Assembly (NCBI RefSeq): GCF_907163105.1 | Contig: NZ_OU015321.1 | Coordinates: 1,116,001-1,180,000 of the forward strand | DNA length: 64,000 bases | Direction of reading: 5' to 3' | From: Cloacibacterium caeni | Lineage (GTDB): Bacteria > Bacteroidota > Bacteroidia > Flavobacteriales > Weeksellaceae | Shown here: piece after piece, positions 44,579-45,033 of the stretch | Layout of the letters: every line of letters starts with the position of its first letter | Position numbering within the stretch: position 1 is the stretch's first letter | The notes under the pieces: model-generated | The model's input: the letters and a program-made list of their open reading frames with translations, nothing else | Databases searched by the model: none | What the model was told of the DNA's origin: nothing | Position numbers and translations under genes: made by a program

Positions 44579-44651
44579 CGCGAGATGGAGCAGTAGGTAG
44601 CTCGTCGGGCTCATAACCCGAAGGTCACAGGTTCGAGTCCTGTTCTCGCTA
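44579..44651 (+). tRNA. initiator tRNA-fMet (anticodon CAT)
   Basis: A 73-nt cloverleaf: acceptor CGCGAGA with TCTCGC, D arm GAGC/GCTC, anticodon stem TCGGG/CCCGA with loop CTCATAA, and T arm ACAGG/CCTGT with loop TTCGAGT. Initiator marks are the unpaired first base (C1 opposite T72) and three consecutive G-C pairs below the anticodon loop. CCA is not encoded (CTA follows). The 3' half from 44626 is repeated at 44947-44997. Confidence 0.96.
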
Positions 44652-44659
44652 CTAAGCTG

Positions 44660-44689
44660 AGAGGATTATTTAAATAATCCTCTTTTTTT
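44660..44689 (+). terminator. intrinsic terminator 1 of the tRNA locus
   Basis: AGAGGATTATT pairs with AATAATCCTCT (11 bp, 2-nt loop) and is followed by seven T. The GIY-YIG start codon begins one base after it, so this terminator belongs to the inserted part if the insertion model is right. Confidence 0.85.
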
Positions 44690-44941
44690 ATGGATGAATT
44701 TGTAGTTTACATATTATTTTCAGAAAAATATGGTAAAACTTATGTAGGTTTTACTTCTAATCTTATTGAAAGATTTAAATCTCACAATTCCCTATCTCAA
44801 AAAGGGTTCACTAAAAATTTTAGACCTTGGAAAGTTTTACATGTAGAATTCTTCAACAACAAAAGTGATGCTTTAGCTCGCGAAAAACATTTAAAAACAG
44901 GAAAGGGAAGAGAATTTATTAAAGGGCTCATATTCGCCTAG
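44690..44941 (+). CDS. small GIY-YIG nuclease (UPF0213/YhbQ-like)
   Basis: A single-domain GIY-YIG nuclease of 83 residues. The two core strands are VYIL (Tyr7) and TYVG (Tyr18), with the catalytic Arg28 in IERF, His32, and metal-binding Glu65 in REKHLK. All active-site positions are intact. It starts directly after the tRNA terminator, and its stop codon lies in the palindrome TTCGCCTAGGCGAA. No promoter of its own is seen; low read-through from the tRNA is the likely source. In homing endonucleases this domain cuts DNA, and here I infer a selfish or DNA-mobilising role from the duplicated tRNA end next to it. Confidence 0.85.
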   Translation: MDEFVVYILFSEKYGKTYVGFTSNLIERFKSHNSLSQKGFTKNFRPWKVLHVEFFNNKSDALAREKHLKTGKGREFIKGLIFA

Positions 44942-44997
44942 GCGAACACAGGTTCGAGTCCTGTTTCGCTAAAGCGAACACGTCTCGCTACTAAGCT
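44933..44997. repeat. partial copy of the tRNA-fMet 3' end with flanking palindromes
   Basis: The tRNA segment CACAGGTTCGAGTCCTGTT (44626-44644) recurs at 44947-44965, and TCTCGCTACTAAGCT (44644-44658) recurs at 44983-44997. In the downstream copy a 17-nt insert splits the two parts. Two related palindromes, TTCGCCTAGGCGAA (44933-44946) and TTCGCTAAAGCGAA (44965-44978), each followed by CAC, flank the repeated T arm. This resembles attachment-site duplication at a tRNA gene. Confidence 0.85.
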
Positions 44998-45001
44998 TAA
45001 G

Positions 45002-45033
45002 AAGAGAATCAAAAATTTTTGATTCTCTTTTTT
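45002..45033 (+). terminator. intrinsic terminator 2 of the tRNA locus
   Basis: AAGAGAATCAAAAA pairs with TTTTTGATTCTCTT (14 bp) with a T-run after. It follows the duplicated tRNA end by 4 nt and could be the ancestral tRNA terminator, displaced by the insertion. Confidence 0.8.

Follow-up and report, generated by a model that had tools for sequence, protein, structure and literature searches.

The window (the whole stretch of 64,000 nucleotides of Cloacibacterium caeni DNA analyzed here) contains a single tRNA gene as called by ARAGORN, a tRNA-Met(CAT) whose 5′ letters, CGCG..., we take to mark it as the initiator type, tRNA-fMet (Table 1). It is the only full copy of tRNA-fMet found in this genome, and a single full match is likewise present in each of the seven Cloacibacterium genomes searched. 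Just 5′ of it is a promoter-like motif, presumably of the TAnnTTTG type, and downstream of it are a terminator, a small gene coding for a GIY-YIG nuclease, a broken copy of part of the tRNA, a second terminator, and a gene (called Sua5) that serves below as the flank marker for empty sites. The ATG of the nuclease gene begins at the very next base after the T run of terminator 1, and because this leaves no space for a promoter between them, the nuclease is likely expressed by read-through from the tRNA.

Table 1. Features at the tRNA-fMet locus, in window coordinates.
Feature	Position	Strand	Basis
Promoter-like motif TATCTTTG	44560-44567	+	by eye
tRNA-Met(CAT), intact tRNA-fMet	44579-44652	+	ARAGORN; Rfam tRNA, 66.5 bits
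Part of the tRNA, with 6-nt trailer, that is duplicated downstream, minus about 10 nt behind the anticodon	44607-44658	+	
Terminator 1: 24-bp perfect palindrome (44660-44683), then T run	44660-44689	+	
GIY-YIG nuclease gene, 83 aa	44690-44941	+	ORF; PF01541
Broken tRNA copy, anticodon arm to 3′ trailer	44924-44997	+	
Palindrome 1, TTCGCCTAGGCGAA, replacing the 3′ half of the anticodon arm and the variable region of the copy	44933-44946		
Palindrome 2, TTCGCTAAAGCGAA, separating the T-arm and acceptor parts of the copy	44965-44978		
Terminator 2 (palindrome)	44999-45032	+	
L-threonylcarbamoyladenylate synthase gene (Sua5), next gene	45051-45662	+	TIGR00057

The broken copy starts with GGGCTCATA (44924-44932), equal to 44607-44615 in the anticodon arm of the intact gene, and includes two exact repeats (both 100%), one of 19 nt (44626-44644 and 44947-44965) and one of 15 nt (44644-44658 and 44983-44997). 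An earlier sequence-only reading of this DNA had described a repeated tRNA 3′ end, a terminator and an 83-codon GIY-YIG gene between the copies, and a terminator behind each copy, all of which are borne out; it took the duplicated part to be the T arm and acceptor, and both are present, but the copy begins earlier, in the anticodon arm. The pattern TTCGCN{0,8}GCGAA has three matches in the window versus 0.26 expected, and none of 100 shuffles reaches three. The C-terminal codons of the nuclease gene (GLIFA and the stop TAG) are built from the tRNA remnant and palindrome 1. The letters ACACG come right behind a palindrome at two targets, tRNA-fMet in the window (44965-44982) and a tRNA-Val (L188), and a short sequence may travel along with the palindrome.

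The 83-residue protein scores 63.8 bits with PF01541 (GIY-YIG), above the curated cut-off of 22.6 bits. Residues Y7, Y18, R28, H32 and E65 are invariant in the eight sequences of profile A1, and we take Y7 and Y18 to be the motif tyrosines and R28 and E65 to be the catalytic Arg and Glu. The GIY-YIG domain spans residues 4-72 of the 83, with no separate DNA-binding domain of the kind present in I-TevI, although such a domain is not universal among homing endonucleases. The nearest solved relatives by sequence are SLX1 and the UPF0213 proteins (PDB 1zg2 and 1ywl), which are likewise short and consist of one GIY-YIG domain.

Occupied and empty sites in Cloacibacterium

The tRNA-fMet site is occupied in three Cloacibacterium genomes (G000, G001 and G002). 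In two others, G005 and G006, terminator 2 comes immediately after an identical, uninterrupted tRNA-fMet, just as the sequence-only reading predicted for relatives without the nuclease gene; the genes on either side, the next gene included, are the same, and terminator 1 is missing at the empty site. In G003 the tRNA-fMet is in the opposite orientation and lacks the element, and in G004 it is located elsewhere and no close relative of the nuclease protein was found. A reversed tRNA-fMet before the Sua5 gene is also seen in several other genera (L059 and other Sua5 loci), and the orientation of this locus thus varies within one genus. The proposal that a unit was inserted into the initiator tRNA gains from the empty sites in G005 and G006, but the T arm, where the break had been placed, is a less likely position for it than the anticodon arm. 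Taken alone, empty sites could fit precise loss by recombination between the repeats as well as insertion.

A second site of this kind is seen at tRNA-Arg(tct). In G006 three GIY-YIG units lie between this tRNA and the next gene, and in G001, G002, G003 and G005 the tRNA is followed by one terminator and then by the gene that flanks the G006 array; the region downstream in G000 differs and does not offer a clean comparison. Just before tRNA-Arg there is a tRNA-Arg-like relic with an altered but paired anticodon arm in G000, G001, G003 and G006, which is absent in G002 and G005 (loci L299-L302 versus L303 and L304); it may be a cassette of the mirror form described below, minus its nuclease.

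The occupied tRNA-fMet sites of G000 and G002 can also be compared with their surroundings. The two nuclease genes differ at about 2 of 49 synonymous sites, versus 51 of 277 in the left neighbor (Fisher p=0.011) and 48 of 135 in the right neighbor (p=4e-6), with rounded counts in both tests. In this one pair the nuclease gene is less diverged than both flanks, which may point to a recent transfer of the cassette between lineages, as judged from about 2 of 49 sites. By the right neighbor, the gene-less genomes G006, G005 and G003 are closer to G000 than G002 is; the left neighbors (CotH-like and M56) do not clearly show this. The dN/dS of the nuclease pair is 0.73, from two synonymous and six other changes, and this ratio, the small number of sites and the left-neighbor distances weaken the argument for horizontal movement.

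Recurrence at tRNA genes across Bacteroidota

Profile A1, built from eight proteins, has matches in at least 218 of 296 genomes of the family, at least 96 of 246 of the order, and at least 162 of 247 of the phylum, the three samples overlapping; genome contigs were also searched with closer sequences (A2), from which the best 80 of 136 were kept. Among 191 clusters with a leading unit of at least 60 bits, 135 begin within 100 bp behind the 3′ end of a tRNA on the same strand, 22 lie 100-400 bp away and 8 lie 400-3000 bp away, and the 3 kb upstream of the other 26 holds no tRNA; units with less than 300 bp of upstream sequence were excluded. The 24 lower-scoring clusters comprise 7 within 100 bp of a tRNA, 1 at 190 bp and 16 with none. 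These counts describe fetched loci picked by similarity rather than an unbiased sample, and duplicates among the 191 clusters, and among the 267 units used below, were removed by sequence identity only; the searches overlap, and some later loci repeat earlier places (L328 is L216, L329 is L198, and L354 is L176). The suggestion in the sequence-only reading that small GIY-YIG genes repeatedly adjoin RNA genes in these bacteria is upheld for tRNA genes, where partial copies of the tRNA accompany them.

The targets among these loci include fMet, eMet, Ile(CAT), Arg, Val, Asp, Asn, Ala, Phe, His and Ser, and the set found with a mirror-form profile adds Leu, Cys and Pro, giving a range of a dozen or more tRNA kinds. 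The single-copy initiator tRNA, suggested earlier as an unusual target, does occur as one full copy per genome, but it is one of many tRNAs used. Tandem arrays are common in relatives, with four units at L047, five at L176, and five within L182 (at least eight are listed for the place of L182), and some hold decayed units broken by stop codons; the locus in the window is a single unit. The named hosts of the window subfamily are mostly Flavobacterium, together with Algoriphagus, Flavisolibacter, Aquimarina, Kaistella and others. One record titled as a Rhizobium sp. MAG (L248) carries a Flavobacterium-type cassette and is most likely a misbinned contig.

Clusters without an upstream tRNA include those at locus or contig ends (L176 and L257), mirror-form loci, and loci flanked by decayed tRNA ends. 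Nine clusters without an intact tRNA were read in the tRNA-linked branches; eight of them have tRNA remnants on at least one side, and the ninth (L270) has only a palindrome-interrupted remnant upstream. Other RNA families near the members lacking a tRNA were considered and rejected, and one of the two checks brought the mirror form to light instead. Genes at non-tRNA sites without repeats, named in the sequence-only reading as evidence against insertion, do occur in a separate sister branch of the protein tree (14 rows, support 99); none of its rows has a tRNA label, and it includes two genes of this genome (L001 and L002).

The tree contains 185 of 290 proteins, after removal of domains shorter than 68 aa or containing X and then of rows with at least 85% identity; it is derived from few columns, and 91 of its 182 inner branches are left open. 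With mirror-form and unlabelled rows removed, the remaining 143 of the 185 rows, with 13 label states, require 24 changes of tRNA label, versus at least 75 in 200 shuffles; for fMet and eMet alone there are 11 changes in 62 rows, versus at least 13 in the shuffles. The nuclease clades follow the tRNA target. The nuclease gene is under purifying selection across species, with a median dN/dS of 0.09 over 1003 non-independent pairs, limited to 80-97% identity and dS of 0.1-1.5.

tRNA remnants, palindromes and the mirror form

Behind the nuclease gene, 229 of 267 units carry 14 nt or more of the tRNA as a colinear chain, versus 1 of 267 after shuffling, a count that ignored upstream tRNA-SeC and tRNA-Gln calls and excluded gaps of more than 3 kb. 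The remnants are therefore not due to chance, and a partial tRNA copy behind such a gene, which the sequence-only reading proposed to look for, occurs well beyond this locus. The non-tRNA part of the remnant contains a perfect stem of at least 5 bp in 207 of the 229 units versus 11 of 229 shuffled segments, the 38 of 267 units without a chain of 14 being left aside. Judging from positions that were read but not counted, the palindromes are mostly in the anticodon arm or variable region, and some also in the T arm. In the examples inspected, their letters vary by target yet the stems stay paired, with TCCGCC/GGCGGA at Met, CCGATT/AATCGG at Arg, TCTCGTC/GACGAGA at Asp, TCCCGA/TCGGGA at Asn and Ala, and TTCGCC/GGCGAA in Cloacibacterium. 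This preservation of pairing despite changed letters suggests that the palindrome structure has a role.

Palindromes of this kind are also candidates for dispersed genomic repeats. On the forward strand, the pattern YCCGCC..GGCGGR falls inside cassette arrays at 5 of 7 occurrences in G405, 7 of 9 in G035, 3 of 10 in G010, 2 of 9 in G014 and 13 of 36 in G331, with the rest outside cassettes, and the reversed pattern, used as a control, gives 0-2 per genome. No occurrence was found on the forward strand of G000, G005 or G436.

The left and right tRNA halves are identical over their last 27 nt in 102 of 267 units, though T stems differ between species, and a test for hybrid tRNAs was mostly negative. 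In one two-unit array (L133), the remnant of the first unit has a compensated T stem unlike those of the tRNA and of the last unit, and the first unit is possibly foreign.

A second arrangement, which we call the mirror form, has the order tRNA 5′ part, nuclease gene, intact tRNA. It was first met at five loci (L165, L168, L196, L216 and L198), in the first four of which the 5′ tRNA part is interrupted by a palindrome in the D loop. A profile of four mirror-form proteins (A3) was run on the 247 phylum genomes and 30 clusters were fetched, partly from places seen earlier; 13 have the mirror form, 13 have the polarity of the window, and 4 have no tRNA within 120 bp. An upstream 5′ copy of at least 12 nt is present in 12 of the 13 mirror clusters, the shuffled control giving copies of 5-7 nt; the exception, L334, has a 5′ copy of 6 nt versus 10 nt in its control. 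Three of the 13 clusters with window polarity (L337, L347 and L353) have a 3′ copy of 8 nt or less.

The extent of the copies bears on where the tRNA gene is broken. The duplicated parts reach the anticodon arm in window-form Met loci and in the mirror loci read, and three of the nine window-form clusters read that have no intact tRNA upstream (L182, L228 and L279) start exactly at the 5′ edge of the anticodon loop, with (C/T)TCATAACCC. From these two sets of loci we infer that the break probably lies near the anticodon. Window-form copies of Arg, Val, Asp and Asn begin farther upstream, in the D arm.

A putative homing cassette and its alternatives

We consider it probable that these units act as homing cassettes of the chromosome, each of which breaks into a tRNA gene, the likely place being close to the anticodon, and then restores it. 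Such a cassette would be a short mobile unit housed in a tRNA gene, with a bare GIY-YIG nuclease as its sole gene. It would split the tRNA gene within the anticodon arm or close to it, bringing along the missing tRNA half (here the 3′ half and a terminator) and keeping the tRNA whole, while the broken half would stay on the far side of the nuclease gene. The nuclease would cut a cassette-free tRNA gene, repair off a homologous donor would copy the cassette in, and tandem arrays could then grow through renewed breakage or through unequal exchange at the duplicated tRNA ends. The proposal draws on the occupied and empty sites, the many tRNA targets, the target-following clades, the arrays and decayed copies, the purifying selection across species, the mirror form, and the possible horizontal movement suggested by the G000-G002 comparison.

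Several observations speak against the simplest version of homing. A rebuilt tRNA gene is identical to an empty target, so the cassette would lack self-immunity, and repeated self-cutting might be what builds the arrays. A foreign tRNA half should often differ from the resident one, and the agreement of the halves within species is at odds with this; it could come about by gene conversion, by donors from the same species group, or by target duplication on insertion. That an 83-residue, single-domain nuclease has no DNA-binding domain also counts against homing.

Agreement of left and right T arms within species would equally be expected if slippage or unequal crossing-over at the tRNA end had produced a local tandem duplication that caught a GIY-YIG gene with no role in spread, and the near-identical units of the arrays fit duplication in place with gene conversion. 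We regard this as unlikely, given that one nuclease family occurs at more than a dozen tRNA kinds and in two polarities, that its clades track the target, that close relatives have empty sites, and that the gene is under purifying selection across species. The same selection, the wide distribution and the tie to tRNA genes would suit a nuclease serving the host, guarding the tRNA locus against elements that integrate at tRNA ends or against tRNA-carrying phages, with the remnant as a decoy; patchy presence within one genus and decayed copies suit a selfish element better, and a defensive role seems to us distinctly improbable.

The involvement of the anticodon region, the matching of each clade to one tRNA kind, and the tRNA-like arms and new paired stems retained by the remnants are what an RNA system of toxin-antitoxin type would lead one to expect, in which the nuclease attacks the anticodon arm of the tRNA and the palindrome-interrupted remnant RNA is the decoy or antidote. 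GIY-YIG nucleases are known as DNA enzymes, however, the nearest solved relatives here are UPF0213 proteins and the structure-specific endonuclease SLX1, and arrays with broken nucleases again suit a selfish DNA element better, so that we hold this explanation to be very improbable indeed. Hardly any weight is left for insertion of an integrase-type element or a group I intron that later lost its other genes: both kinds of element are well known for inserting at tRNA ends and anticodon loops, but the minimal content is identical across the units read. At the locus itself the GIY-YIG gene is the only ORF of at least 50 aa between the copies, so there is no integrase or recombinase gene, and no intron family is found at E values up to 1 in 44300-45300.

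Returning to the homing cassette, a fuller version can be offered, tentatively and at somewhat less than even chances. It would hold that these are phylum-wide selfish cassettes, with every nuclease clade dedicated to a single tRNA kind, and that the tRNA, split near the anticodon, is rebuilt from either side; the remnant would have a function of its own, with compensatory changes preserving its stems, and would provide the cassette with cis-protection, an end for recombination or an RNA signal resembling a tRNA. If the units are indeed homing cassettes, they would form an extensive family of mobile elements in the chromosomes of ordinary bacteria, housed in essential tRNA genes and using them with neither integrase nor intron, the host being given a replacement tRNA half. 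They would also pose testable questions: what lets a homing nuclease live with a target of its own rebuilding, by what means an element gets into a tRNA gene harmlessly, and whether breaks made by the nuclease give rise to gene arrays in chromosomes, as is reported for SegB in phages.

A cyanobacterial intron-encoded system is said to have as its target the same tRNA gene and the same part of it; unlike that system, there is no intron here and the tRNA is contiguous. The cassettes may be viewed as a variant of homing elements, with SegB and the mobile ORFs of fungal mitochondria as the nearest counterparts. SegB of phages T4 and T6 is described as a free-standing GIY-YIG homing endonuclease encoded beside tRNA genes; it reportedly cleaves inside tRNA genes and is required for the tandem repetition of a tRNA together with its own gene, and its homologues are carried by phages whose several phyla include Bacteroidota (PMC13096335). 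The motif reported there, RAWTSGAAC, reads like a T arm on the other strand. The adjoining of GIY-YIG and tRNA genes, in tandem repeats among the relatives though as one unit in the window, is thus common to both. Unlike SegB as so described, the cassettes are chromosomal, and they have an 83-residue nuclease, a rebuilt tRNA half, a palindrome-interrupted remnant and two polarities. Queried with the window protein and its close kin only, 50,697 phage records contain no match and viral contigs gave no confirmed match, and the two plasmid matches are proteobacterial proteins at about 41% identity.

The fungal mobile ORFs swap the ends of genes (atp6 in Allomyces; atp6, atp9, cox2 and nad3 in Glomus), with an endonuclease ORF and a replacement 3′ end inserted and the native end left downstream, as in the cassettes (PMC3630166). 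From what the available portions of that paper describe, theirs are mitochondrial protein genes whereas ours are bacterial tRNA genes, and their inserted end has diverged from the native one whereas here both often agree; palindromes, a mirror form and arrays are not mentioned in those portions (PMC3630166). Within the open-access literature, to which the search was confined, most subscription papers being outside its scope, no report of such cassettes in bacterial chromosomes was found. Homing cassettes could account for small GIY-YIG genes in the genomes of Bacteroidota and for tRNA calls there that are oddly incomplete or spurious. ARAGORN calls tRNA-SeC or tRNA-Gln on palindrome-interrupted remnants at L013, L050 and L036, and false tRNA genes arising from remnants may be present in public annotation.
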